Of a DNA stretch of 64,000 nt, positions 11,016 to 63,292 are shown piece after piece. Made by a program: the position numbers and the translations under genes. The stretch lies in assembly GCF_963855985.1 (NCBI RefSeq), contig NC_087119.1:9650001-9714000 (forward strand), given 5' to 3'. This DNA is from Ostrinia nubilalis (Eukaryota > Arthropoda > Insecta > Lepidoptera > Crambidae). The notes below the pieces were generated by a model that was not told the DNA's origin, made no database searches, and saw nothing but the letters and a program-made list of their open reading frames with translations. The number at the start of each line of letters is the position of its first letter. The first letter of the stretch is position 1.

Positions 11016-11157
11016 CTGAACTGTCCCACCAAACTCAATGACAGGGGGGCGCTACCATCGTTCAACTATATGGTTTCCAACATGGCAAAAATCGGAACCA
11101 GCGATCCGGTATTGACGGTGGCGCCCCACTGTCAATGTCATGCATAGGACAGTTCAG
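11016..11157. mobile_element. MITE family 2, copy 1
   Basis: Ends CTGAACTGTCCCACCAAACT and TGCATAGGACAGTTCAG are inverted repeats, with GGGGCGCTACCATCG mirrored by CGGTGGCGCCCC inside. Related copies lie at about 24000-24080 and 33611-33750. Confidence 0.65.
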
Positions 11158-12305
11158 TATTTTGGAACTATACCTACTGACGAAGTTAAGCGTAAGACCT
11201 ATTATAGTTCTTTAGGTTGCCTAGGATCCTCAGCGATCTTTTGGTATGAAGATCACAAACATCTAAGCATGATGATTAATAACATTTTCCATTGATTAAT
11301 ATTTCTTTATTGCACAAAACTTTTACAATGGTAGTAACACAATTTAAATATAAATATAAATAGTGCATTGCTGAAGGAGACACAGAGTAAATATACAGAG
11401 GTTTCCAAACTAGGCCAAGCCTGTATCTTGGAAAACCAATAAAATTAAGTGTGTAACTTGCAGAGAAAAGGAAAACCAGCGTACAACAATGCAATTTCTG
11501 GTGCAAAAGAAACATCATGAGTAGCCTAAAAACATCAATTTATCAGGTTTTCTGTACTTAAATAATCCAGCGAGAGTAACCACTTGCTTAGGGCTATCTT
11601 TGCTTCCGAAACAGAACAAGATTTTATATTACAAGAGCTTGCTGCCTTATTATAAATACGCGCCTTAACATAGTCACCAAATCTGCTTGCAAATCGAGAA
11701 TTTACGGAGGGAGTGGGGATTTTGAATACGCGCTTTTTAATGAGAGTATTGTATTCATCAGATGAGATTAATCGTTTGTGGGCAATCAGGGTGGTTTTAA
11801 GGATGAACAACTGACGCACTGTAAGAACCTGAGCCTCCCTATAGAGGTCCGTTGTAGGGTATCTAAAAGGTTTCATGAGCATTATTTTTAAAATGGATCT
11901 GTTTGCTCGTTCAGCTACCAGGAGTGAAGTCTTGGCAGCACTGCCCCAGACTGAGACACAGTAACCAATCAAAGACACGATGAGCGCTTTGTAAATAATA
12001 ATCAGTAACTCGAAGTTGGCTGTATCTCTAAGCTTCCTGAAAATACCTGATAGCTTTCTCAGACGTTTAGCCAGCTGCTGGATATGGATTTTGAAGTTAA
12101 GATGCTCGTCTATCATTACTCCCAGGTATTTTGTGACATTGATACGGCTAATGTAGTTACAAGTGCAATTTTGAGATGAGGACAGATCGCAAGAATGTAT
12201 TACTAGTTTGTTTTCGGAATTAGGACTGGACGCTGCCGTTTTATGAAAGCAGATGAAGTTAGTTTTAGAGTGATTTAGGGTAAGTAGGTTATATTTAAGC
12301 CATTT

Positions 12306-14135
12306 GGGTATTTCTCACCGCCACGGTTCTCATCGTCACCTTCGTGGCGAATTTTATTTCTAACTTATTTCAACTTTTTTTAAACAAAAATTGTAGCACT
12401 TGATGTGAAGATTGTATTCTCAGTAAATCAGTCAAATAGTGAGTCTCGTTTGGAAGCTATAACGTTTTGAATTTTTTGATGCCACGAAAGTGATGCTGTA
12501 CTTCACAGCAATAATTTTTTCAAACTTTACTACTGTAAATGACTCTTAAGTGTTTATAAAACATATATTTTGTCTTATTTTCATAGATAAATAGCAATAA
12601 CATAATATAAATAGGTACCTACTTAATTACAAGATAAAAATTTACCGATTACGTCACCTACTAAGTTACAAGATTCTACGCAATTGGTTTTAAGGGTGAC
12701 ACTGGTGGCATTCTGAAATGCTAAAGAAGTAAAAAACGGATTATCAGTAGGTACCTCAATAAAAAAGAACTCTAACTGATTATCAGTCCCTCAACAAAAA
12801 TATATTTTTTATTTAGGCCAGAGGGCCTCGTATTTTTGTTGTACAACTTTTAACTCGAACTTCAGATTAAAAGACAATGCCGGAAATTGGGGTCTTTTTT
12901 TTTTCGCGCGGCCATCGACCAAACTTTGTTTTTTGATTACAAAATAGTGTAATAAAACAAACATACTATGACATGTATACCTGTAAACTCAGTCTGAACT
13001 GAGTTACGAGCATTAGAAGTTTGATGATTTTCATACTAGATTTGCTTTTTTCGCGCAAAGTTTTGTAAGAAATTGCAACATCGCGCAAAGTTTGGTCGAT
13101 GGCCGCGCGAAAAGAAAAGACGCCACTTTCCATACAAAATCTGGCATTGCCATTTATCTTACAACCAGATACACAGTCACATATACAGACATACATACAG
13201 TCATACAGACAGACAACAAAAATACGAGGCCCTTATTTATTTATTGATGTACTGATCTCTACTTACCACGTATAATTTATTAGTTATTAAAATATTGTAA
13301 AAACATAAACACCAGTCACTATATTTTAAAATAAACCAAAGCGAGAAATCACTTTCGTGGCCTAAAATCACCTTCGTGTATAAAACACCACGAAGGTAAT
13401 GCCACGAAGGTGACGAAAATTTTAGTTTTTTATGAATTATCCTTAAATTTGAATTTAACGGTTCAAGTCGAATACTACACAAATAAGTCTAACATGTTAA
13501 GTTTTCAATGGCAAAGTTTCAATTAAATTGTTTAAATTTTAGAGGTAGAAAATATTGTTCAAGCAAGCGACGGTATGTCTATGGATAATCACAAAAAGTT
13601 ACGTATTTTTTTCGCGAAGCGACGATCGACCTATCTCACCTCCCCAATGGTCGAAGCGCGACTGACGTTAACGGAATAGAATGCTGTGATTGGTTACTGG
13701 TGTTCGGTTTAACGGCAATCTTGCATTATTACTCAAAATTTTAGGTACCTAAAATCGTGTGACCAACGTATTTCGTTTTCTCAATTCAAAATAATTATAA
13801 GAAGATATTTTTTTTATTTTTGTGTGGAAAGTATATTTAATTACGATGATTTCAGTATATGCTACACACAAATTGAATGAAAATTGTGAATGCAGTAACT
13901 AAATGTTTCATTGCAACCGAAGGTGTGACACGATGAGAACGCGAAAAATGACCCCGTTTTTTATCGTTTCATGTGATTTTTTCGTATTATTTTTGCTTCT
14001 ATTACAATGAAATTTATTTTGTATGTAGCTAAATAGATATTTTATCATCTGATTTCAAAGTTATTGTTCTAACTTATACCGTTTATGAAATATTATTGTG
14101 TGACCATCAAATTTGAGTGTAAATGAGAAGTACCC
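12306..14135. mobile_element. Non-coding 1.83 kb TIR element inserted in LINE ORF2
   Basis: Its ends are GGGTATTTCTCA (12306) and TGAGAAGTACCC (14135), a 12 bp inverted repeat with one mismatch. ATTT is duplicated at 12302-12305 and 14136-14139, and removing the element with one ATTT leaves the LINE frame intact, which fixes both borders. Subterminal inverted motifs are GTTCTCATCGTCACCTTCG (12326) and, reversed near 13918-13941, GTTCTCATCGTGTCACACC. The string CCACGAAGGTGA and close variants recur at about 12336, 12481, 13355 and 13390-13420. There is no long open frame, so it is a non-autonomous DNA transposon. The TIR and 4 bp target do not match a family I know. Confidence 0.8.
12822..13233. 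mobile_element. Hairpin element nested inside the 1.83 kb element
   Basis: Inverted ends AGGGCCTCGTATTTTTGTTG (12822) and CAACAAAAATACGAGGCCCT (13233). The arms continue to CGCGCGGCCATCGACCAAAC (about 12904-12923) and its inverse GTTTGGTCGATGGCCGCGCG (about 13090-13109). It is the third level of nesting in the LINE. Confidence 0.75.
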
Positions 14136-16652
14136 ATTTACAAATTAAGGACATTCCGAGCTCAGCAGAGTGAAGTGTGGAGGACCAATTATTACCATTG
14201 AACAGAACAGCAGTGTCGTCTGCGTAGCATATCACCTCGGCATTTAAAAGGTGTAGATCATGAATATCATTCATGTATATAATGAAAAGGGTGGGGCCAA
14301 GTATGCTACCCTGGGGTACGCCGAAATGTATAGGTAGAGAATCACTTCTTAGTTGGCCTACCCTGGTAAATTGTTGCCTATCCGAAAGGTAACTTTTAAA
14401 CCAATCCAGCGCAAGACCCCTCACACCCAAGCCCTCCAATTTACGGTACAGTATTTTTGTGGACACGGTGTCGAAAGCCTTGGCCAAATCCAAGAAAACC
14501 CCTACACATTGCTGGCCCTTATCCAGGGAGCCAGAGACAATCTCAGTGAGTAACGTGACAGCGTCTTCGGTTGATTTGTGGCGTCTGAATCCGAATTGTC
14601 TTGGGGATAGTAACTCGTTTTGCTCAATGAACCTGGTCAGGCGGTTATTGACAATTTTCTCCAGCATCTTGGAGAAGACACAGAGTAACGAGATAGGTCT
14701 GTAATTACCCGGTTTATCTTTAGGACCGTCTTTGTAAATAGGAGTTACCAGAGCAATCTTCCAGGATGCAGGAAAGCAGCCAGTTCCCAAACTCAAGTTG
14801 AATATGTGTTCTAAGGGTGCACAGATAATACTTCTAGCACATTTAACAAGAGCGGTACTGACTTCGTCTACTCCGGGCGCACTGTCAATTTTTAGTTGGG
14901 CAATCATATCAAGTATTTCATCTTGATCAGTTGGGTCGATGAAGAAGGAGTGTGCAGGTGAGTGTGTGTGCTTAACACTGGAAGCTAGATGGTCTTCAGT
15001 TTCTCCAGTCTGAGACATTATGTTATTTGCCAGTGACTGTCCGACGCCGGAGAAGAAAGCATTACATTCGTTTAAGGAAACCATAGGGTTATTTTTATCT
15101 GAAATTAGGTCGTTCGATTGCTGATTAAGTTTAGAGTTGTAAGTTTTCTTTATAGATTTCCAGAGAAGCCTAGAATCTTTGCTGTTTTTTAAGAGTTCTT
15201 CCCTTTCATAAGCTAGCTTTACCTTTCTTATTATGTCAACGTAGAAGTTTCTATACCTACGATATGAAATACTTAAGATTTCATCATTTGGGTTTTGTTT
15301 AAGTTTAGCGTGGAGCCTATCCTTGTGCCGTGAGCACCTAAGCAGGCCGGGGGTCATCCACGGCCTGATGACGAATCTCGAACGACTCAATTTAACTGTT
15401 TTGGAGTTCAGTTTAATTGATTCATTGATCTTTGCCATGAACGCATCCACAGCTTCATTAACGTTAGTCATAGAATATAATGGGTTCCAGTCTACTTCCT
15501 CCAAGTATTTGCAAACTCCGGTGTAGTCAGTAATAGTTCTAAACCTGGCTTGACCATTGCTGGGATGCTTGGATTTGGTTGTGAGAGCAAGCATGGCGAT
15601 CCTGTGGTCGGTGATATCAGCGTCGCATACAACACCGATGGCTTTGGTTTTTGTTTTAACGAAGATGTGATCGAGACAGGCATCTAATCGAGTAGGTTTT
15701 GTGATAGCAGGTTCCAGACCATGCTCTGTGTAGCAACACAGGTAATCAGTTGATTCTGAACCGAGGATGTCGATGTTAATATCACCGGCCACAATGATGC
15801 ACCGCTGGTCTTTCGTAGTACCGAGAAGTTCGTCCAGTGAGAACAGAAAGTTATTAATGTTTCTGAAGGATGGCGATCTATATATTCCTAGGATTGTAAA
15901 CTGATTGTCAATGGTTATTGATAGACAACATGCCTCACTGAAAAATGGCTCCATCACTACAGCAGGCCATGTGGACTTAACAAATGCAACTACACCTCCA
16001 TTTTGGTTAATATTGTGTTTGGTTGAGTAGGAGTTATACCCAGGAATTTTTTCAATTATAGTAGATTCGTCAAGTCTGCACTCAGTTAGAATTAGGACAT
16101 CAAAGTTAATATTTAACCTGTGGAGGTAAATCAAGAAAGCGTCGAGATTTTTAGCGATACTTCTGATATTCATAGTTAGTACGGTAAAATTAAATGTAGG
16201 GGTGATTACAGCGCCACATGACTCTGGGTCGATCAGTTCATAACATGGAATATCAGGAATTTTATCAATATCAGCAATTAGGTCTAAATTACCCATTATT
16301 AGGAATAGTTTTCATAAAATAAAGAGTTGAGTAAGCAGAATTAACAAGGTCAGCCGTCAGAAGAGAGCGCCGGTAGCAGTTTAATCTAGACAGTTTTAGG
16401 AAGCAGTGAAGTGTGTTTATAAATTGATGTTTCGCAGCAATATTGACAAAATTCAAATAAAGTTCTAAGCAAAAACGAGTTAAATTAGTAAGAGTAACTT
16501 GTGGCACAACAAATAATCTATACAATAAAAGTATTGAGTTAAAATTGAGAGTGTTTCTTAATAAAGAACAATTAAAAAGTAAAGGTAGTAACAGCCAGGA
16601 GGCCGAGGTAAGTAGTAGGAGGTAAGCAAGAGTAACAATTGTTATACGTTTG

Positions 16653-19423: not shown

Positions 19424-22400
19424 CTACACTTTGTGAGACTCCACCGTGTCTTCGGCCTTCGCCTTCTTCTTGCAGATGTTGTCGGCCTTGTCATCGCCCT
19501 CTGCGCAGATGGTCTTGAAGCTGAAGGGGTGGAACATCCATCCCCGACCCAGGTAGAACTTGCTCATAAATTCAACCCTGGAAACAAAAAAAAGTGAAAA
19601 AATCAGACAAAATAGCCCATGATTTTCAGTTTGGCCCAAAAGTTAACTGGAACTTAAAGGTTGAGTTGTTGAGGTATGGGAGGGGATTGATATTGACATA
19701 TTATAACGTGACAGGGCATGTGGCATGGCATCTGAAGTCTAACTGACGTTTGATCGCCATGAAATTACCCTCCTGTACCGCTCCCATATCTCAAGCACTG
19801 AGTTATGCGCTAGACGTACGGTAAAATCTTTTCAAAATCTGTTCAGTCGTTCGGAAGACCTGCTGCGATATTCGTCTTAGACAGAGAAAATACTGTTTAG
19901 TTCTTAACGACAAATGATAAAGCATACTAAAATAATGTTTGTAAAAGACATTCGTACACAATGTAGCAGCTTTGATAGCTTCCTGCAAACCTAATATTAT
20001 ATTCAATCATTGTCTTAATTGGAAACCATTACAAAGCTATCAGTTTCAGACCATCGCAATTCCAGAATCCGCCTAATGCCGATGCAACAGATAGTATTGT
20101 GTTTGACATGCCTTTGTATCGATGTCATGCAATTATGACGCTGATGGCTACTGACAACTGACATCTGACGCACTTCGCCGACGAAGCTAGAGATATTCGC
20201 TGACGCTGCCTCCAGGCACTCTAAGGCGTTTGGTGCTATCGACATTATCAATGTCTTGGTGCCAAGCACAATAGGTTCATTAGCTTCACTAGTCGTTCCT
20301 AACCTTTACCCTTTCAGTAATCTGATTTCAAAACATTTTAAGGTTTCGTCAAAAACTATCCAGTAGTTTTTGTAACAAACTTTTGCGTATTTATTAGAAT
20401 TCGCAGATGAAAACTTCTTTCGATTTTCTTTCGGCACTTCTTCTCAGCACCAGCCGCTTTGTTGTTCAAAAGTTGTGGTGTTGAAAGCTATATTACAAGC
20501 CTGAAAAGGGTCTACATACTAATAAATAATTTGAATTTGAGTATTATGCCTTAATCACACGTACCGAGTAAATGGGCGAGACAGTAAAATGTTTACTCGG
20601 TCGAGACAGTTGGGTGAGCGAGTCACATACTCGAGCGCTCGGCCGAGCACTCGGCGTAATGTTCATACACACCGAGTACTCGACCGAGAGCACTGTCTCG
20701 CCCAAAGACAAAACCAGCTCACCAATGCAGCCGCAGAGTGTGCAAGAAGGCCGACAGCCCCTCCATCACGACGAGGATGGTGACCGTGAAGAAGGCCCAG
20801 CAGGCGAACTTGATCGGCAGCAGCACACACTTTATAGTGTTCTCGTAGTCGCGGCCGGCTTGTAAGACCATGTTCCACAGGATATCTGACAGCTCTGAAA
20901 CATACAATAGTCTTTGTTTCATCATCATCATCATTTCAGCCATAAGACGTCCACTGCTGAACTCCCCCAATGATTTCCACAATGGCCGGTTAGTGGCGGC
21001 CTGCAGCCAGCGCCTTCTATCCGCTACCTTTGTCAGGTTGTCGGTCCACCTTGTGGGTGAACGTCCTACGCTGCGATTTCCATTATGTGTTTCTTTGTTT
21101 GACATATTATTATATCAATACTTGGTTACTTCTACGGTACAGAAGGCAAAACAAGAGCAGAGTAATCTAAGGTAGCCCGTTTCCAAGCCATTTCTATACA
21201 GTTGAGGATTTCGAATGCTTGCTTCCATCTATAGTCTTTAGGTAAGATTCCGGCCAAGAACTTCCCCGTAGGGGGTAAAAAACCAAATGTGCGTCGACAA
21301 AATACCTGTACTTTGTTTTACCTGCATGAGCTAGGGATAGTGCCCACAAACGAAGATACGAAGCAGTATGAGATATGGTGCTCAAAACGAATTCGATGGT
21401 GCTGACTCCTTGGTGTATCATCAGCTCTCCAAATGGCTGGCTGTACCTCTCTATGTCAGCCAGAATTTTTTCCTCCGCCTTCTTATCGGATTCCCTTCTC
21501 TGCTGATATCGCCGAAAATTGCTTATTTTATTCTGAAACAAAACATTCGTATTCATACAAAACAAAAAATAATTACGAAGACATTTTATAAAAGGAAACG
21601 TGCTTTATCGTGACACTTAATAACCTATCGGCCAAGAAATTGCGGAAGCAAAGCTGTCTTTTTAACGAAATTGAAAGCTGAAATTTTCGAGCGTGGGTGC
21701 CAATTTTGTTTTTAATACGACGACATATTATTTTGGCAAGTTTACTAGTATGAGTGTGTAATGTGTGTTTTAGAAATCAGTCATAGCTCATTACTGTTCT
21801 TTTAATTTTAAGGTAGACCGAGTGTGTAGGTAGAATTTTCTAGAAATCACGTAGGCAAAGGAAAATTACAATTTATTACAAATCTATCAATAAGTAAGTA
21901 TTTATGGAGTTTAAAATGCTCCAAAAGCCGTTTGATGCTGCCCACAGCTAGGGAAAATGAAATGATACGACATTACAAGGTTTCATCAATACAAAGAATA
22001 GCAATATAATTTTATTCAGCCTTGCATTTACAAGTACGATTGCTTTGATTTGACATTTGCAAGCCGCTTAGACTTGAAAATAGAATATAAAAATAGTTTC
22101 CCTTTGATTTCAATTTTCTCTCGAACGCTGATTACTTTTTACATTTATGGCTTATAGTCCAGTCATTTAAGCTTAAATTAGGTAAGAATCTCGGAATTAG
22201 AGATACCCAGCTGTAAGTCTGTAAATACTTGTATATTGACACCCTAAAAGTTGTCTCAAAACCTACATATGGTAGGGTGTAAGCAACTATTAAATTTTAA
22301 GGTCAAAGGTCACAAAAATCGGTTTTTTGCGCTTTTTTTGGAAATATCTCATTTCCTATGGGTTTTTTGCTATTTGTATTTATTATCAATATTGTAGAAT

Positions 22401-32700: not shown

Positions 32701-35700
32701 CCACGTAATTCTTCAGCAGGTTGACGTGGTTAGTCGACATTTCCACGATGTCGTCCTCCCATTTTTCTAGTATGTTCTGTACAAATTAAAGTCAAATGGG
32801 ATATCAAAAGGGACCCAGCTAAAAACGTTTGGAAAAACCGTTGAACAATAGTATTTCCAGTACATAATTGCCTATTTTTGAAATTCGAGATTGGTTTTGA
32901 AATGATTTTCATAAGTGAATACTATGAACTATGTAATATCTTAATTTTTTGGTATTGGAAAAATAATACTTCTTATATTATGGTTAATTAATTTTGATTT
33001 ATTATAAATAGCAGCGTAGACGCAGACAAAGTTAAAAAACATTTATTTTATAAATAAATGTCTTTGAACCCGAATATCTGTCTCCAATTAGTCAATGTGG
33101 GCGAATCTCCAGGTAGGCAACCATGGAACTGCTGGTCGTAGGCGGCCTGTCTCATGGATTTAAGATACTTTTATAGCAAGCCTGACAAAAGTTCAATGAA
33201 TTGCAAAGAACGGTCATGCTTAGGCGGCTTGGTGACAACGCTCACGAAATTTTCACTTGGCAATCCGCTTACTGTGGAGGTAAATGCACTACCACAATCT
33301 AGCGAGACTGAAGCGAGTCGCCTGAGGGGTAGGGTCTATTCGAACACGTAGTGCCCTTTTCGTGCCTGCCCAATTAAATAATGTAAGGACTTGAAAGGGA
33401 AATCTTTTTAAAAATCATGTTGTAATAAACTATTGTAGTGAACGTCATTTGGCTGAAACGAACTAAACGAAACTAAGACTGGCAAACCCATTTCATTTTC
33501 ACAAAAATTGATAGCCTGTGTGCGTCGCACAATGCAAGACAATCACTTTCAAATTGACTGAAAATAAAACAACTGTGCGTTGATTACGTCACTTTTTGTC
33601 TAACTACAACGACCCGTCCTATCAGTAACATTGACAGGGAGGCGCCACCATCAATACCGGATCGCTAGTTCCGATTTTTGTCATGTTGGAAACTATACAG
33701 TTGAACGATGGTGGCGCCTGCCTGTCAATGAGTTTGGTGGGACATTTCAGTGTAGTTCATTATATATCTCTAAAATATTTACTTACTGACTACTGATATT
33801 TATATTTTAAGGCCGGGTAGCAGAGAAAATGGCGAAAATGAGGTTTTCATTTTTCATTTTTGAGGTACTAAACAGTAAAATTAAAGGCTAAGATTTTTAT
33901 TGGGCATAGTTGAGGATATTTTCTAGGGCTATTAACGGATGGAAACACGATTTGATGAAGTTGACTCGATAGAATAAATTCCCAAAATTACCTCTATTCG
34001 TTTTCTATTTATGGTTTTATTTTTAAAATAAGCGATTTGAGATTCTAAATCTTTTACTAAACTAAAGTTCAGAAATAACTTGAGGGCTTTTAACGGATGA
34101 AATTTTTATATTGCGTCTTATTTAGTTACAATGTTAAAAAATGTGGAAAAAATCGTCCATGACGGCTTGGACAATCTCAATCAGTCGCGCGGTGGCGCTT
34201 ACGGAGGACGGACGCGTGTCAGTTTTTTGCCCGTGACAGTTCGCGGTTTGTCAATATTTTTGACAATGATGACTTTGATGAGTCACAGTATAATAATATC
34301 AGTGTTACTGGAGAAAGCTTAAATTTTTGATAATTAAAAATTATCAATTTTGTCTACCTATTGAAATTTTAATCGTTCGCATCCTTTTAAACGAAGACTC
34401 TACTCATGATACATAGTACATTCCTCAAATATGAGACAAAACCAATGAGTTAAAATTACATTTTAATAGTACTTACATACAATCGTCTTACACTCTTTAG
34501 AAGAGCACACTGACAAAAATAAATAATAAAAAATACTGTCTAAGGTCTGTAGCTAAAGGTCTAAGCTGTAAGATAGAAGAATCTTCTAGCCAAAAAGATG
34601 GCAGATGCAGCAGATGTCAACGGATTTAAAACTGGAGTTCATATGACTCCTTGTAGACTTGAGTCTCTAGAGCGTCCCTTCCTCCACCATACGTAAGAAT
34701 TTTCACAAAAATACTGTCTAAGGTTTGTAGCTACAGGTCTAAGCTGCAAGATAGAAGAATCTTCTAGCCAAAAAGATGGCAGATGCAGCAGATGTCAACG
34801 GATTTAAAACTGGAGTTGATGTGACTCCTTGTAGACTTGAGTGTCTAGAGCGTCCCTTCCTCCACCATGCGTAAGAATTTTCACAAAAATACTGTCTAAG
34901 GTCTGTAGCTAAAGGTCTACGCTGCAAGATGGAAGAATCTTCTAACCAAAAAGATGGCAGATGCAGTAGATGTCAACGGATTTAAAACTGGAGTTGATGT
35001 GACTCCTTGTAGACTTGAGTGTCTAGAGCATCCCTTCCTCCACCATGCATAAGAATTTTCACAAAAATACTGTCTAAGGTCTGTAGCTAAAGGTCTAAGC
35101 TGCAAGATAGAAGAATCTTACAAAAACATGGCAGATGCAGCAGATATCAACGGATTTAAAACTGGAGTTCATGTGTATCCTTGTAGTTTTGAGTCTCTAG
35201 AGCAGTGGTTCTTAACCTTTAAGTCATGAGGGACCATTTTACCAAATTTTTGTCTTGTCAGGGACCACCTCATAATCGGTCAAAACCAGTTTGACTGCAA
35301 AAATCAGTTAAAAGTGGTTTTGACCAAGGTGTGCAAGTGCACATCGTGGACCACTTGGAATGCCTCCAGGGACCACCAGTGGTCCGCGGACCACCGGTTA
35401 AGAACCACTTCTCTAGAGCGTCCCTTCCTCCTCTATGCGTAAGAATGTTTCAAAAATACTGTCTAAGGTCTGTAGCTAAAGGTCTAAGCTGCAAGATAGA
35501 AGAATCTTCTAGCCAAAAAGATGGCAGATGCAGCAGATGTCAACGGATTTAAGACTGGACTGGCACCACCTTGCAATGTCATCCTCTCATTGTTATCTGT
35601 GATATAAATTATTTTTAAAATGTATTTAAAAGATTAAATGTTCGTTTTATTATTTCAATAATCTGACCTCTCAACTCAACTACACTACACAAACACCTTT

Positions 35701-41100: not shown

Positions 41101-44100
41101 GGGAGATACTAACGCAACGCTATGGAAACCGACGCCTTCAGTTTACATCTTTCATCAACACCATGCTCAACTTGCCTACTATATAAAATCCTGAGAGCTA
41201 CAACTTGAAAAAGATGCACGACGTCATCACTGAATGTTTGAATGGAATCACAAACATTGGCATTGACACGACTACGTGGGACCCACTTATTGTCCACCTG
41301 ATGTCACTAAAACTTGACAGAAGTACTTACTCGGAATACATGAAAGAACTACAAGACCACAGAGAATTGCAGCCACTAAACGACTTTCTATAATTTCTCG
41401 AGTGCAAGTTCATGGCCTACGAGTCCATGAAAAACACCAAAAAAGAAGCTTTTGGTACTCAAAATCAGAAGCATACTTTTACGAAGACTTCAACTTCAAA
41501 CAGAAACATTACATCGTGGAATACTAACGAGAGAAACTATTCATTCAAGAAATACAACAACGAACCTAAGAAAACTTATTACACTACTTATGGAAAGTGC
41601 CCAAACTGTAACGAGAATCACGTGTTGATGCAATGTCCAAAGTTCATCGACATGAACCCCACTCAACGCAATAACACTGTTGCAAAACTGCATTTGTGCG
41701 AAAACTGCTTATACAGGCACGGCAACGACAAATGCAATTCTACAAAAACTTGCAAAGAATGCAACATGCGACACCACACTTTATTGCACAACTCTACAAA
41801 GAAATATTCACCAACAACTAAAACATCGAACGAAACTAGCTCAAAACCACGACTTTCAACTTCTTCTCAACCATCTTCCAATCATCTATCGACGGAAGAT
41901 GTGGAGATCTTACTGCCAACTGTACAGCTGCAAGTGCTGTCTACAAACGGCACTCAAATTAAACTTCGAGCTTTACTAGATCAAGTCTCGCAAGTGAACT
42001 TAATTACTGAAAGGGCGGCGCAACTGCTACGTCTGCCTAGGAAGCGTCTGAACGCAACCATAACAGGAGTAGGATCTGTTTCTGGAGACTGCAAAGGACG
42101 TCTAAATCTGTCTTGCAAGTCCATTTACTCCAGTTACGAGTTTGAGGTACAAGCCCTCGTAATGAAAAAGCTCACTAACAAATTGCCAAACTCGTCATTT
42201 GAGCCAAATGAATGGCCACACTTAGAAAACTTGAAGCTCGCAGATCCAGACTTCCACATGTAATAAAGAAAACTGAAGACAACATAAATCGCCAAGTCTC
42301 CGTGATGGAAGGCTACATGAACCAAACTGACACCAACTTAGCCAAGATCGAATCAACTATGGAAGCCATGATGGCCACTAGTTATTTCAACTCAGCGTCA
42401 CTGACAGCATATTTACTCATTAAAAATATGCGAGTTATGCAAGACATGCTATTCGACACACTCACTGACGTCTATAAAGGACATATGGACGTGCACTTAC
42501 TTACTCCAGTAAACCTGATTGACCAACTTAATGACATTTCTGGAAAATTGCCGAAATCATTAACCTTACCTGTGGAAAACATAAGAGAAGACATCAAAAC
42601 AGTCTACAAACTACTGTATGCAAAAGCAAGAGTTACTTCAGATTACTTTTTGTTTGAAGTTCACATTCCACTCACTTCAGACGAAGATTTCCTCATCTAC
42701 AAGATGATTCCACTGCCTGTCAAGACTGAAAAGGGTACAACAATTATAAACCTGCAATCTCAATACATTGCTGTCAACTTCCACAAGAACACCTACATAT
42801 CTGTTACAGAAACTGATTTGAAGTTGTGTACTCAAGTCAAAACAGATAATTATCTATGTTACAAAAATGTGCCTATTTTCAACCTGCATAACTACAATGC
42901 TCCGTGCGAGGCTAAGTTACTGAGTCACAGCTCGGGGACAACTTGTGACGTCAGGCCAGCGTCGTGCAATGACGCCTGGATCGAATTACACGAAGCGAAC
43001 AGCTGGCTGGCCGTTTGCTGCGAGGCTTGCACTTTGCGCACGGTTTGCAACTTTGACGTGACGTCGCACTCTATGACGTCATCTGGAATAGTAAACCTAG
43101 CGCAAGGATGTGTACTACAATCCAAGGACTTCACTATTCACTCGCACAATGAATACAACAGCAAAATTATTAACATCGACCACTACTCCGAAATCCCAAC
43201 TCTCAACTCTACGGCAAACAACATTATCCAATTAACTCGCCATAATGTGTCATGGAAAGTACTCCGAGAAACACATGATACTGAACTTCAAGAAATTGAC
43301 GAGCGACTACATTCCCTGCATGAAAACGAAGTTTTACCCACATCTATTTCCAATCACGACATTCATCAATACACCATATGCTATGCACTCCTCAGTGCAG
43401 CAATAATTGGAATGAGTGTATGGATTACCAGAAAACTTGTCAACTCTTACCGTACCAAGCACAACGGCATGACAACTCATACAAATGAAGCATTTGAACT
43501 GGAAGAAATAAAGACACACTACGGGGTGGGTCAAGAACACACAGCCCCAGCCCAGCCGCCGGCGCCGCGCCCCCGCGAGTCCCGGCCTCCAACGCCTGCT
43601 ACTGCGGCACCAAAGAAGAACCACGTTACTTTTAGTTTTGACGATTAGTATTTAAAAAATTGTTTGCTTTGTAATGGCATATCTTAATCTTGATAGTTTT
43701 ACTTCCTAGTTTATCTTATTTTCTTTTCGGGTTGCCAATGTACGGGCAAGCCATCGTACATTGCACTTACTTTTACGCTTACGTTTGCGTCCTACTTTTT
43801 GGGCGCGCGTTAGTTACTATTTTAAGTATTTTTCTTTATTATAACTCAGTACGTCAACAACCATCCCACGTAACACTACTACTCAAGAAAAGATTTGCCA
43901 CGATAACTCTGTCAGTATTTTACTACAATATAAACTTTAAACTTTGGAGATCTATTCTTCTCGACGTGCTCTTCAACTCGACTTCAACTAACTTCAACTC
44001 TACTTAGATAAATGTATGGCCCTACAAACCATACAGATGGTGAGACGATTTGATCAAACTTGTAGGGACTGAGAGTCGAATGACTATTAATAGGAATCTG

Positions 44101-53824: not shown

Positions 53825-55495
53825 TTGTTTTGTTACTATTCCATTGATTTAGAAGGCATACGACTGCTATCAAAATGTTTGCACGCACTTCCTTTGAGTG
53901 ATTGCGTCGGCAAATGTAATCATTGTCTTTTCTTTTATGTAAGTGATGTTTTGACTACTCTATTGTTCATTTTAGTAAATAATATTGCTAACACTTGTCA
54001 TAACAGAGAAATGACACCGCTTGATGCTTGCATCAGTGTAGACCGGGAAGTGAAAGTGAGCACAAGCCTGATAATGAAAATTTTTACTATATTAATTGTT
54101 ACATTTCTATACCATAATCATAATGTGCGTTGTCATGACTTTTTCAGAGTAATGACTGTGAAGTTCAATGATTTTACAAGGATCATGTCCAATAGTTTTG
54201 ATGGGCTATTTTCTAAAGTGAAAAGCATCTTTGTCCCGCGAGTCCGAGATGCTCAGAAATCGATAGAACAATACATTTTAGAAGAAAGGATTAAGCAAGC
54301 TTTCAATGATTTTGTTGAGAAAACTGCAGCTGATGCGGATACTGAAAGTCCTGAATATGCCAGCATGAAGTCCGAACCAACAGCATTGATGTCTACACCG
54401 CAGCTGGCTACCATACATGGAAGAAGAATTGAATCCCATGTCATCAAGACAAGAGACGGGTATCTGTTAACGTTGCATCGAATATTAAGTAAACACAACC
54501 AAAATGACACAAAATTTAGTAATGAAACCATTTTACTACACCACGGTCTTCTTGGCAGCTCAGCTGACTGGATACTTTTAGGGCCGGAAAAATCGTTACC
54601 ATATATTCTAAGTGACGCTGGTTACGATGTATGGATGACCAATGCCAGAGGTAATTACTATTCCAGAGGTCATAAGTCAAAACCTGTGAATTCACGGTCA
54701 TACTGGAGGTTCACATTTCAAGAAATGGGCGAATACGACCTGCCCGCCGCCATTGACTATGTTCGAACCTTAAAAAATTCTACCAAGAAAATAAATTATA
54801 TTGGCCATTCCATGGGTGCTACAGCATTATTGGTGCTGCTATCAACTGCTCCGCGTTACAACCAGTACTTACGAATCGGGATATTGTTGGCACCGTTGGC
54901 ATTTATGACCAATATCCAAGGTCCACTAAAAATTCTTACGAGTATGTCGACCGATCCTCCCGATCAATTGCTTAAAGCCATCGGCGACACAGAGTTCGTG
55001 CCATCCAGGAAGATCCCGAAAATGATGGCATCAAAATTTTGTAAAGGAGCAAATATTTACTGCAGCAATCCGTTGCTTTTTTTGACGGGCAGTATACCCG
55101 AACAGGAGCCGCAGGATGCAAGCTTCATGGCCAGATTGTTGTACCACGTGCCCGCCGGGGGATCAACTGATACCATAATGCATTACGGACAGCTTGTCAA
55201 GAGCGGGAAGTTCCATAGATTTGGTCGGGTTAAGTCTGAATTTCCATTGAACCAAGTTAAGCTCCCGATTGCTATGTTCAGTTCGAGCACCGACTGGCTC
55301 GCTACAGTTCCTGATGTCCTGAGGCTGTACTTTAGTATTTCAAACCCTATTGACCATTACGTAATCCGTGGTCAGAACCTGAGCCATACCGAATTCGTTT
55401 GGGGGTCCGAAGCTAACGTATTGGTGTTCCCGAAACTGATGGATTACTTAGAAAATGGTTTGAATGTTAATTTTGTTAAGGCGAACGAGGTTTGA
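53825..55495 (+). CDS. Acid-lipase-type secreted lipase, intronless
   Basis: Alpha/beta hydrolase of the lysosomal/gastric lipase family, which hydrolyses ester bonds of neutral lipids. The frame opens at 53825, but the likely start is Met at 54074 (MKIFTILIVTFLYHNHNVRC, a signal peptide), giving 473 residues; Met at 54011 is another option. Order: signal peptide, an unusual spacer of about 100 mostly charged residues, the lipase-associated segment (ESHVIKTRDGYLLTLHRI), HHGLLGSSADW for the oxyanion region, nucleophile Ser in GHSMGA (codon 54809), Asp in STDWLA (55292) and His in LSHTEFVWG (55385). The Ser, Asp and His spacing fits the family. No intron interrupts the coding part, though family members usually have several. 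Its neighbour at 58844 is a paralogue. An upstream untranslated exon is possible (acceptor-like TTCATTTTAG near 53975). Natural substrate unknown. Confidence 0.9.
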   Translation: MFCYYSIDLEGIRLLSKCLHALPLSDCVGKCNHCLFFYVSDVLTTLLFILVNNIANTCHNREMTPLDACISVDREVKVSTSLIMKIFTILIVTFLYHNHNVRCHDFFRVMTVKFNDFTRIMSNSFDGLFSKVKSIFVPRVRDAQKSIEQYILEERIKQAFNDFVEKTAADADTESPEYASMKSEPTALMSTPQLATIHGRRIESHVIKTRDGYLLTLHRILSKHNQNDTKFSNETILLHHGLLGSSADWILLGPEKSLPYILSDAGYDVWMTNARGNYYSRGHKSKPVNSRSYWRFTFQEMGEYDLPAAIDYVRTLKNSTKKINYIGHSMGATALLVLLSTAPRYNQYLRIGILLAPLAFMTNIQGPLKILTSMSTDPPDQLLKAIGDTEFVPSRKIPKMMASKFCKGANIYCSNPLLFLTGSIPEQEPQDASFMARLLYHVPAGGSTDTIMHYGQLVKSGKFHRFGRVKSEFPLNQVKLPIAMFSSSTDWLATVPDVLRLYFSISNPIDHYVIRGQNLSHTEFVWGSEANVLVFPKLMDYLENGLNVNFVKANEV

Positions 55496-58843: not shown

Positions 58844-60370
58844 GTGATTAATAATATAAAATACCTGCGAACATTTTTTCGGCATATAAATTGGACACTA
58901 CAACGTACACTGAGCAGTCTGATTCAGATTTCAACAGCAATGTGGTTAATTTTTATACTTTTAATTTCTAGTGCCAATACCGAAGACTATGCAAATGGCG
59001 CCTGCATGGAACAACAATTTCGAGGAGCAGTGGAGCGTGCAGGAGGCGGTCTGGTATCGTCTTTCGAAAAATTCAGAAATGAAGTAGAATCATTTTTTAA
59101 AGCAAACATGAAACAGATGGAACGCAGGAGAGTGACAATAAAGAAGGCATTTTTCAAATTCATCAATGAAGCCTTTGCTGACGATATTCCCGCCAAATTA
59201 AACACAACTGTCATGAGCCATGAAGAAAACTCTGAAGCTGGTGTTCTAATGGAAGAATTAGTGAAATCACATGGCTACAAAGCAGAAAGTCATGCAGTGG
59301 TGACCACAGACGGCTATGTATTGATTGTTCACAGGATATTGCCCGCCACCCTTAATGAGTCTGCAACAAAAAGTGGTATAGTGTTGTTGCACCATGGTCT
59401 TTTTGGTAGCTCCGAAGATTGGGTATTACTAGGACCAAAGAAATCCCTTCCCTATTTACTGGTTAATGCTCATTACGATGTTTGGCTGACTAATGCAAGA
59501 GGAAACAAATACTCGAAAGCACATATGAGTCGGACAATGACTGATGATGAATTTTGGAACTTTTCCTGGCATGAGATTGGGCAGTTTGATCTATCAGCAG
59601 TAATTGACTACATACGAGAACAAAACGATAAAGATCAACCTTTGCACTACGTTGGGCATTCGATGGGAGCTACAGCACTTTTAGCACTTTTGTCGACTTA
59701 TCCTACTTACAACCAGGTCTTAAAATCGGCTGTTCTGTTAGCTCCTTTAGCATTCATGTATGAAGTGAAAGGACCAATACGACTTCTCGCTGAATTTTAT
59801 AATCAAAACACGTTTGTGTCATTAAAATTTTTAGGTGCACATGATTTCGCACCACTGGAATACTTTCCAAGGAATTTCATTGAAAAATTTTGCAAAGGTA
59901 CTAAAATTATGTGCTTAAATCCTTTATTATTATTAGCAAATGGAGGACGAGAGATAGCAAATAAAACTCTAAGACAAAACATTTTGAATCGTGTGCCAGC
60001 AGGAGGGTCAATGAAAACTATAATTCATTATATCCAGCTTGTGAAAAGTGGTCAATTCCAAATGTTTGATATGGGTAGATCGCAGAATTTGAAAAAGTAT
60101 GGGAGAGTGGCGCCTCCAATATACCGTTTGAACGATGTTACATTACCAGTGGCTATATTTTCATCTTCAGATGATTGGTTATCAACAATTCCAGATATTC
60201 AGAGTTTGTTATCTAATATACTGAACCCTGTAATACACCATGTAATCAAAAGACATGAATTCAGTCACACCGACTTTGTATGGGCAGAAGACGCAGATGT
60301 ATTGGTTTATTACCTTATTTTAGACGTATTGAAGCAAATAACTGAAGGAAGAAATGATAAAAATATGTAA
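58844..60370 (+). CDS. Acid-lipase-type secreted lipase, intronless paralogue
   Basis: Same family and order as the gene at 53825. The frame opens at 58844, but Met at 58940 begins a good signal peptide (MWLIFILLISSANTEDYANG), giving 476 residues; the extra 32 residues are probably 5' UTR or a second start. A spacer of about 85 charged residues follows, then the lipase-associated segment (ESHAVVTTDGYVLIVHRI), HHGLFGSSEDW, nucleophile Ser in GHSMGA (codon 59660), Asp in DDWLST (60173) and His in FSHTDFVWA (60266). Conserved cysteines FCKGTKIMC match FCKGANIYC in the first copy. All catalytic residues are present, so it is probably active. Tandem with lipase 1, 3.4 kb apart, same strand, so the pair arose by duplication. 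Regulation is not visible. Confidence 0.9.
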   Translation: MINNIKYLRTFFRHINWTLQRTLSSLIQISTAMWLIFILLISSANTEDYANGACMEQQFRGAVERAGGGLVSSFEKFRNEVESFFKANMKQMERRRVTIKKAFFKFINEAFADDIPAKLNTTVMSHEENSEAGVLMEELVKSHGYKAESHAVVTTDGYVLIVHRILPATLNESATKSGIVLLHHGLFGSSEDWVLLGPKKSLPYLLVNAHYDVWLTNARGNKYSKAHMSRTMTDDEFWNFSWHEIGQFDLSAVIDYIREQNDKDQPLHYVGHSMGATALLALLSTYPTYNQVLKSAVLLAPLAFMYEVKGPIRLLAEFYNQNTFVSLKFLGAHDFAPLEYFPRNFIEKFCKGTKIMCLNPLLLLANGGREIANKTLRQNILNRVPAGGSMKTIIHYIQLVKSGQFQMFDMGRSQNLKKYGRVAPPIYRLNDVTLPVAIFSSSDDWLSTIPDIQSLLSNILNPVIHHVIKRHEFSHTDFVWAEDADVLVYYLILDVLKQITEGRNDKNM

Positions 60371-61124: not shown

Positions 61125-61262
61125 TCGTACTAAGCTAAAGTATGCTTGTATCACGAGTGAGCTCACCACAATAGTCGAGCGGCGGCGGGGACCGAACCCG
61201 CGTTCCTCGTGTGACGCACGAGTCACCCCTTCACCGTTCGGCTATCGTGGCTTCGACTCCTG
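61125..61262 (-). mobile_element. tRNA-derived SINE
   Basis: On the minus strand it has a perfect T arm (GCGGG, loop TTCGGTC, CCCGC) and ends CCACGAT/ATTGTGG that can pair, but with about 12 extra bases between T arm and acceptor. That insertion and the relative at 58318 favour a SINE over a tRNA gene. Confidence 0.55.
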
Positions 61263-62107
61263 TGTTACGTATATTGTCTACTTTGCAGTCGATATCTATA
61301 ATGACTGTAGACTGAATCAATGCTGCACTTTTGTGACCGGATTTCGTAGTTTTAGGACATCTAAAAATAAATCATCTATACATATATGTAATCTCTCATC
61401 TATCTTTCGAAAACAAGTTAAAGGTATTTGGGATGTTCGCAAGATGTATTCAGGAAGCTTAGGGCGATATCAGGGTGTATTAAATTAGTTTGAGACTCGT
61501 TATTTACCCCTCCACAATCTAAAAATTATTATTACACAAGCTTTAATTAGTTTATGTACGGATTTTAACGTCTGTCTATTGCGTCTAAAAGTCGCTCGTC
61601 TGCTCCACCCCGCAGGCTGGACAAATGTTGTTAATTTCCCACGTGCCCTATTCATGGTGTGTACAGTTAGCGCGACAAACCTGCCTCCGCGCCACACATT
61701 TGTGAAAGCTGAATTTGGAAATTTATCTTTGCGAATATTTATAGCGCTGCCAGCGCTTGCTAATGAACGCTGAAAGGGATCATTTTAAAGGGTCCATATT
61801 CGGTTGCATAAAAAATATTGTCATAATTTAAGAGTGCATAAAGTTTTTTGGCATACTCATCATTTCGCATAACGTTCATACAGAATAATTCATAAGGCAT
61901 ATTTTTTTTGCCATTACCACTTTTATTATAATAATATTTTAGTATATATTTTTTCTGTATACTCGTTTTTTTAATAACGATTTCTAGGCATAACATTTAT
62001 TGGCATCTAAACCAATGCCATAAATATTATCATTCATAATATACAAAATACCATAATTTTAACAAATATGAAATATAAAAATGTTATAAGTTAACAAATA
62101 TAAATAG

Positions 62108-62456
62108 ACAAGCAAGCATGCAAACAAGCATGCAAGCAAGCAGCAAGCATGCAATCAAACAGCAAGCATGCAAGCAAGCTGCAAGGAAGCATGTAAGCAT
62201 GCATGCAAGCAAGGATGCAAACAAGCAAGCCTGCAAGCAAGCAGCAAGCAAGCAGCAAGCAAGCAGCAAGCAAGCAGCAAGCAAGCAGCAAGCAAGCAGC
62301 AAGCAAGCATGCAAGCAAGCAGCAAGCACGCAAGCATGCAAGCAAGCAGCAAGCAAGCATGCAAGCAAGCAGCAAGGAAGCATGCATGCAAGCATGCAAG
62401 CAAGCAAGCATGCAAGCAAGCAAGCATGCAAGCAAGCAAGCATGCAAGCAAGCATT
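62108..62456. repeat. CAAG / CAGCAAG / CATGCAAG microsatellite
   Basis: A 350-base array of CAAG units mixed with CAGCAAG and CATGCAAG. Long frames across it on both strands (Gln/Ala/Ser/Lys/Cys on plus, Leu/Ala/Cys on minus) are repeat artefacts. Confidence 0.95.
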
Positions 62457-62459
62457 AGG

Positions 62460-62650
62460 ATTGCCTTATCTCCGGCGCTGCGGGAAGTGCGGTCCTTCCG
62501 CTCTGGCGTAACATATACCCGGCATGCCATGCTCGCTTCCGCAGCTTCGGCTTGCTGGTCGCCTTCGGCGACCAGCCTCAGCCGCTCCAGCTCGCACGGC
62601 TGCCGGATATATGTTACAGCGAGCGAGGACCGTACTCCCTCCGCGCCTCC
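62460..62650. repeat. GC-rich imperfect palindrome
   Basis: CTCCGGCGCTGCGGGAAGTG and CGTAACATATACCCGGCA are mirrored by TGCCGGATATATGTTACAG and CCTCCGCGCCTCCGG. The centre CTGGTCGCCTTCGGCGACCAG is itself a hairpin, with CTGGTCGCC and GGCGACCAG arms. It stands out sharply in composition. Confidence 0.75.
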
Positions 62651-63292
62651 GGCTTTTAAATTACACTCTAGTATAGGGCAGACTAGTACCACGTGGAAGA
62701 GACCACGGCCAGTCGGGATCTACATAATTTCAGACCAGGCAAGCTTAATGTTGTAAAAGAAATGTGGACTGTATAATATGTGCGTTATAATAGATAAGAG
62801 GGATTCAAGATCAAACAGAATGTAGTTTCACGAGCTTAAGTTTTCTAAGAAACAGGTCAAAAATTAAGAACAAAAATGACAATGATACAGAGAATTTAGT
62901 TTTTGCAAATCTATAGGCCGAAAGAGTATAAAGGTGGAAGGAGGATCGTTCGCAACATCACAAATACATAATTATTTACTCTTCAATGTTGGTTGCTCTT
63001 ATAGACAATATTTATGACTTTAAATGTTATAAATAATTAAATTATGTTTATAGTATTTTATTAAAAACAAACTTTATGTATATAAAAATTATGTTCTTTA
63101 CATTTATGATTATTTAAATTATGGTATTGAAAATTAGAGAAAGTTATTATTATGCCTAAGAAACCATTATGCATTTAGAAAACTATGCATATCAAAGTTT
63201 ATGCGAAAAAACTTTATGCAAATACTGTTATACCAAACTAAATTATGATGAAAAATGTTATGCGTCTAAGAGGGCACCCCATTTTAAATGAT

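Follow-up and report, generated by a model that had tools for sequence, protein, structure and literature searches.

What kind of element occupies the far end of the window, and why should a five-base word and its spacing be kept in two arms that otherwise bear little resemblance to one another? By the window we mean the whole stretch of DNA analysed here, 64,000 nucleotides at C43:9650001-9714000; the assembly has 52 contigs and totals 495 Mb. The size and content of this genome point to an insect, perhaps a moth or butterfly. The original prediction described a foldback element whose arms are degenerate arrays of CATAA, or alternatively TATAA, boxes. We placed the borders of the element, collected its copies, measured the spacing of the boxes and compared the ends with those of transposons resident in the same genome.

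Borders and copies of the element

The element, probably a complete non-autonomous Mutator-like transposon, runs from 61790 to 63279 (plus strand, 1490 bp), begins with GGGTCC and finishes with GGGCACCC; these borders were placed in 40 two-ended copies. The same 9-mer, CATTTTAAA, stands at 61781-61789 on the left and at 63280-63288 on the right. An earlier proposal gave the ends as ATCATTTTAAA (61779-63292). Those ends proved to be mostly target DNA, because the flanking 9-mers match within a copy, differ between copies and are present singly in uninterrupted relatives; CATTTTAAA is thus the 9-bp target-site duplication of this copy. Within the borders, a left subterminal CATAA array (61790-62075, plus strand, best period 15.2-15.25 bp) and a right one (62995-63279, minus strand, best period 15.3-15.5 bp) enclose a CAAG-type microsatellite (62109-62454, plus strand) and an imperfect palindrome (62474-62647, about 73% identical to its own reverse complement). 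The palindrome is GC-rich inside an AT-rich element and is possibly captured sequence. The DNA fold of 62465-62660 gave -60.2 kcal/mol (z = -8.8), a strong predicted hairpin at the palindrome.

With the reported interval as query, 854 candidates were scored, and the best 40 included 37 other near-full-length places with 92-98% identity, whose matches begin at query base 1-12 and finish at 1501-1512. A further 39 loci were examined together with their flanks. Both ends could be placed in 40 copies, a total that includes the window copy and two copies at locus L018, while at L045 the right end alone was seen. Two-ended copies are 1390-1548 bp long. Fixed words flanking the microsatellite lie 249-407 bp apart in the 35 of 40 copies in which both words were found, and the copies at L013 and L019, with no difference in 930 compared end bases, are nevertheless 1459 and 1439 bp long. 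Because length differs between nearly identical copies, the microsatellite changes faster than the rest of the element. Genome-wide, the 22-base left end was found at 215 places with at most 3 mismatches, compared to 1 place for the control pattern read backwards. The expectation of further copies was therefore borne out, although not with the ends first given for them.

Sixteen further left ends were inspected. Five match over their whole length in a single alignment and eight have both ends but with gaps or insertions; in the remaining three (L052, L058 and L060) the aligned rows listed stop short of the right end. Judged by match pattern alone, there was no autonomous version among the 16. 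A sister subfamily, with about 10 places among the matches listed, is represented by L074, which is also a complete gene-less copy. The exact left-end motif was absent from the viral contigs searched, a set that may omit records near this genome. Neither Rfam at gathering scores nor ARAGORN with the bacterial code returned anything in the window. The same ARAGORN run called no tRNA at 61180-61250 on the minus strand, which by eye resembles a tRNA-derived short interspersed element. The window also holds a tandem array at 34529-35203 (178-bp unit, 3.8 copies, 94% matches) and open reading frames at 14107-16296, 41412-43648, 53825-55495 and 58844-60370, which by eye resemble a LINE reverse transcriptase, proteins of LTR retroelements and two genes of lipase type.

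Target-site duplications and age of the family

Perfect 9-bp duplications flank 36 of the 40 two-ended copies, and the 9-mers differ from copy to copy. The other four comprise one copy with an 8-bp duplication (L038), the two L018 copies, joined as a dimer and bounded by a 10-bp direct repeat, and one copy with no duplication (L024). Empty sites were sought by comparing the joined flanks against all fetched sequence, and at each of the three sites laid out (L016, L021 and L036) the uninterrupted relative has the 9-mer once. The element has therefore been mobile. The copies share a median pairwise identity of 99.1% over the right 660 bases and 98.8% over the left 330; at about 99%, the family moved recently. 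This level of identity, together with the clean duplications, points to the recent presence of an active transposase.

Two repeats of the window itself, at 11039-11172 and 20917-21074, have relatives at L016 and L036 that are interrupted by this transposon, and thus represent paralogous empty sites. The dimer at L018 (C29:4815202-4819103) is head-to-tail and consists of two 1448-bp copies that are 100% identical, the length-variable microsatellite included. The copies are separated by GTGCG, a spacer with the same sequence as the first five flank bases, and the whole lies inside the 10-bp direct repeat GTGCGGGATA; it is one case among 39 loci. Copy-out/paste-in transposition of the IS256 family is described as leaving flank-derived junction spacers of 6-8 bp (PMC7780238), of which the L018 spacer is reminiscent, although unequal exchange or an assembly error may instead have produced the dimer. 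At C3:14640799 (plus) and 14647497 (minus) two left ends face each other 6.7 kb apart. They may belong to two adjacent copies, or to a single element both of whose ends are of the left type.

The CATAA ladder

On the inward-pointing strand CATAA occurs 9 times in 319 bases of the left arm (1.62 ± 1.23 expected) and 12 times in 320 bases of the right arm (1.21 ± 1.06 expected), and neither count was reached in any of 3000 dinucleotide shuffles. The opposite orientation, TTATG, is seen 0 times on the left and once on the right. The predicted array of CATAA boxes in opposed orientation is thus present in both arms, but TATAA as an alternative box is at chance level (4 against 3.0 expected in one arm and 4 against 2.8 in the other). 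In the left arm CATAA starts at 61807, 61822, 61837, 61868, 61891, 61989, 62019, 62035 and 62052 (plus strand). In the right arm, on the minus strand, the boxes lie at offsets of 17, 32, 61, 76, 108, 125, 156, 171, 186, 201, 233 and 263 from the right end. Counted from the tips, the first left boxes are therefore at 17, 32 and 47 and the first right boxes at 17, 32, 61 and 76; right offset 47 holds TATAA in the window copy and CATAA in 7 of the 40 copies. A tenth left box, at offset 122-126, is shared by 39 of 40 copies, and the window copy has a mutated form of it.

The boxes follow a ladder. When rungs are drawn from base 17 of each end, CATAA falls on 8 of 17 rungs on the left and 11 of 17 on the right (0 of 300 shuffles in each case), and the best-fitting ladders have steps of 15.2 bp and 15.3 bp, respectively. 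An unguided scan of all 5-mers at periods from 8 to 25.75 returned CATAA as the top word in both arms, at 15.25 on the left and 15.5 on the right. Scan scores for the left and right arms were 6.4 and 7.9 in the copy at L009 and 5.6 and 7.9 in the window copy, compared to a mean of 1.7 and a maximum of 4.9 in 458 background segments. Base-by-base autocorrelation peaked at lag 15 in both arms when 300 bases were taken; with 270-base arms the left peaks were 61, 46 and 15 and the right peak was 15. A test of box positions only, over all periods, gave p = 0.002 for the right arm and p = 0.48 for the left. The autocorrelation and shuffle check that had been proposed for this array came out partly in its favour. 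The spacing is regular, as predicted, although its width is 15.2-15.5 bp and not 13-20, and the left arm does not reach significance on positions alone.

Arms with 21-25% GC might be expected to contain such a word by chance. This explanation is refuted by the shuffles and by the background segments, all 458 of which score below both arms, and we give it practically no credence.

The two ends also share a register measured from the tip. In the window copy 9 of 14 left boxes lie within 2 bp of a right box (p = 0.013), and in L009 the figure is 9 of 15 (p = 0.034). This common register is kept by arms that are only 40% identical in register, compared to 33% when shuffled, and whose inverted arm-to-arm pairs of at least 20 nt are 21-28 nt long at 71-81% identity. 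A true foldback, with its long and nearly identical inverted arms, is ruled out by these values.

Variation in boxes and filler

In the 20 units of L009, filler positions carry at most 0.34 bits (KL) except for 0.63 bits at position -1, so that the box and the base before it, which is G or T in 14 of 20 units, are alone clearly informative. That the filler between boxes would be unrelated had been predicted, and it is nearly uninformative. Conservation among copies was examined in 57 left and 53 right arms, drawn from the 40 copies and from 19 additional sources in which the match covered the arm (others were dropped), with the first 17 bases and bases beyond 275 excluded. Variable sites made up 13 of 110 box sites and 81 of 406 filler sites (p = 0.052). 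Sites with the minor variant in at least 2 copies numbered 4 in boxes and 27 in filler (p = 0.36), and those with the variant in at least 4 copies 0 and 8 (p = 0.21). When the 40 copies alone were used, p was 0.77 on the left, where boxes were slightly more variable than filler, and 0.11 on the right. The comparison of box and filler that had been called for is thus suggestive in that fewer box sites vary, but it loses strength at stricter cut-offs and is not decisive because the family is too young.

An element of the same class might carry the ladder as the relic of a decayed tandem array of about 15 bp, with CATAA surviving by chance or mutational bias and having no part in binding. Weak similarity (z about 2-3.6) does persist after the boxes are masked, at ladder lags 29 and 16 on the left and 47, 30 and 16 on the right, among other lags, and the youth of the family takes the decisive conservation test away. 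We nevertheless consider a relic unlikely, because neutral decay should erase box and filler alike, whereas box and -1 are alone clearly informative over 20 units and both ends share their register from the tip. Of the two causes suggested for the array at the outset, slippage is not favoured as the sole one, since boxes are kept and filler is lost, although tandem duplication may have made the array originally. Selection on the box through protein binding is the better of the two ideas, and its support is indirect: the box-versus-filler difference given above and the periodicity, with other words, in other transposons described next.

MULE transposons of the same genome

The PF10551 (MULE) profile matched 45 places in the genome. 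Eight of these loci (L064-L071) were examined and the ends were located in four, L065, L066, L069 and L070, but not in L064, L067, L068 and L071. L065 has an inverted repeat of 208 bp and a 9-bp duplication, CCAGCGTAC; L066 has 155 bp and 9 bp (ACCGAATCC), and L070 has 134 bp with a duplication of 8 or 9 bp, GAAGATTG(C). All four sampled transposases match MULE, and FLYWCH is above the cut-off in three and below it in L070 (20.8 vs 23.6 bits). The L065 and L066 proteins are 63% identical, and the other pairs 24-32%. Against these four transposases the best match of our element was no better than E = 0.4, and nothing in the window matched at 1e-3.

The ends of L065 show autocorrelation at lags 31, 62, 15-16 and 46-47, and those of L066 at 31, 62 and 46, with a weak signal at 15-16 (z 1.3-1.8). 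In L070 the left end peaks at 16 and 32-33, and the right at 8 and 65, above smaller peaks at 16 and 32. The best 5-mer periods of the three are 15.5, 15.5 and 16.5, respectively; their ladders rest on the autocorrelation because the 5-mer scores, about 3.0, fall inside the background range. L069 has a GGGT tip and ACCCA boxes at 17 and 32-33, followed by wider and uneven spacings (mostly 22-25), and is not a clean 15-bp ladder. Three of the four MULEs with located ends thus have an end periodicity of 15-16 or 31 bp carried by other words.

These families bear on the possibility that a DNA-binding protein of the host recognises the boxes, with a role in expression or silencing. Short AT-rich boxes such as this one are of the kind read by many host factors, and CATAA resembles posterior homeodomain sites. 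The orientation of the boxes, their symmetry about the two tips and their register fit end recognition instead, and similar periodicity with other words in other families argues against a host factor as well. We regard a host role as highly improbable.

Search for a partner transposase

No transposase gene was found between ends of the CATAA family among the places listed. Among the 89 arm places listed, the sole one within 200 kb of any of the 45 PF10551 hits is C21:13767300, at 1.7 kb; the next is 211 kb away. Of the 215 left ends, the 100 that were listed are all exact and on C1-C15, and none of these 100 has a PF10551 hit within 700 kb. Because contigs C1-C15 hold just 6 of the 45 hits, the partner may be among the left ends outside those 100.

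At C21:13766700-13771600 (L069 with L072/L073), a MULE transposase open reading frame of 472 aa lies between inverted GGGTTATTCCG ends (also written GGGTTATTCCGTATTCG) that carry ACCCA boxes, and this element abuts the right arm of a CATAA copy. The ends that enclose the gene belong to the ACCCA element. The simplest reading is therefore a separate element inserted in the CATAA copy, and we did not accept its transposase as the partner. The outer flanking 9-mers of the ACCCA element do not match; the nest may be rearranged or only partly seen. A second candidate is the interval C4:12231760-12238206, where 6.4 kb separate a left end at C4:12231760 from a right arm, at C4:12237896, of matching orientation, and no PF10551 hit falls between them. 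This pair may represent an insertion inside a copy, or a longer and possibly coding member of the family.

Some room is left for another superfamily with 8-9-bp duplications and analogous subterminal repeats. Merlin, with an IS1595/IS1016-type transposase, has duplications of that length. No transposase with the CATAA-family ends was found, a 9-bp duplication alone is not diagnostic and the 6.4-kb C4 candidate lacks a PF10551 hit. The co-resident MULEs, on the other hand, resemble our element in duplication length and roughly in end periodicity, and L069 also has the GGGT tip with a first box at +17; we think it quite improbable that the element lies outside the MULEs.

A model for recognition of the ends

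On balance we favour, with reasonable confidence, a non-autonomous transposon of the MULE superfamily, most like the FLYWCH-bearing Phantom/Muta branch, in which the CATAA ladder is a set of putative transposase-binding boxes; its membership of the superfamily stays short of proof, since the search turned up no transposase gene between such ends. MULEs have target-site duplications of 8-10 bp, typically 9, in agreement with the perfect 9-bp duplications of most copies. Terminal inverted repeats, a second MULE feature, are at best poor here: the GGGT tips and GCATAA at 17-22 agree, with 13 of 22 positions alike overall by inspection. Some MULEs have poor inverted repeats. The subterminal repeats of about 13-16 bp that mark the Phantom/Muta branch are represented by the ladder of a 5-bp word, without a full conserved repeat.

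An element of this kind, with no recognisable transposase gene, would be moved in trans. Each end would consist of a short GGGT tip and, from base 17 onward, inward-pointing CATAA boxes at intervals of about 15.3 bp. The boxes probably bind transposase, and the zinc fingers of several transposase subunits may read them cooperatively. With a step of 15.5 bp, roughly one and a half turns of the helix, every second box (31 bp) would come to lie on the same face. The array would supply the affinity and end specificity missing from the weak tip. Selection would act on box and register and leave the filler free to drift.

A broader possibility, which we put forward tentatively and would not yet back, is that FLYWCH-type Mutator transposases read their ends by a ruler of about 15.5 bp common to the branch, with the word private to each transposase and the filler free. 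Such a ruler would let diverged arms keep the ladder without the sequence. As a general claim this is a hypothesis, drawn from three of the four families here, one uneven, and from published repeat lengths. If it is true, the ends would be recognised through many weak boxes set in helical phase, a distributed code that would account for the "tandem repeats" carried by many FLYWCH MULEs, and the spacing would be a structural ruler open to direct test. A 5-bp word with a phase predicts exactly which bases the transposase should touch, and the co-resident families, with other words at similar spacing, offer natural comparisons of specificity.

Comparison with known systems

The structure had been singled out as the one in the window least explained by known classes. 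That assessment does not stand, given that published FLYWCH Mutator-like elements (Muta1, Muta5 and Tm1) have subterminal repeats spaced at 13-16 bp and duplications of 8-10 bp. In anatomy these three are its nearest relatives. Muta1 of Aedes aegypti is reported to have 9 copies of a 12-bp repeat with 3-4-bp spacers and Muta5 9 copies of a 15-bp repeat, in tandem inside long inverted repeats of 145 and 151 bp, and FLYWCH was predicted in 13 of 14 Aedes aegypti families, Muta1 included (PMC5225508). As far as that account goes, they resemble our element in duplications of 8-9 bp, in a spacing of 15-16 or 15 bp behind a short terminal motif and in many non-autonomous derivatives. They differ from it in that here a 5-bp word and its phase alone are kept, the arms are about 40% identical and the family has no linked transposase. 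The Mutator/Foldback element Tm1 of root-knot nematodes has repeats of 13-15 bp with a 15-bp consensus, inverted repeats that average 93% identity and a Phantom-like FLYWCH+MULE transposase (PMC3169594). The likeness, from what is described there, extends to mostly 9-bp duplications, short repeats in composite ends, asymmetric terminal motifs and gene-less derivatives, but Tm1 has kept the consensus repeat and near-identical arms whereas here the filler is lost.

The open-licence literature searched yielded no description of this CATAA family or of a general 15.5-bp MULE ruler; an arthropod MULE survey does not discuss repeat phase in its abstract or Results (PMC13359780). According to a 2013 paper, no test had yet been made of transposase binding to the tandem repeats of Foldback and Phantom (PMC3688188). 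The same source describes multiple THAP binding sites in the internally repetitive ends of Galileo (P superfamily), which may work in a similar manner with a different transposase.

For mechanism the nearest worked-out analogue is Hermes (hAT), in which 4-bp words that need an AT-rich neighbour are read by several BED zinc fingers of one oligomer; exact phasing is suggested to be crucial, and the arrangement differs between the two ends (PMC10368747). Our element may work likewise, through short subterminal words read by zinc fingers. Hermes differs in superfamily and zinc finger and has an 8-bp target site, and the part of that source used here describes no 15-bp ladder. The published relatives are described as conserving their repeat. 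What is new in the present element is that no more than a word and its phase is left of the repeat, and that two barely similar arms keep the same register.
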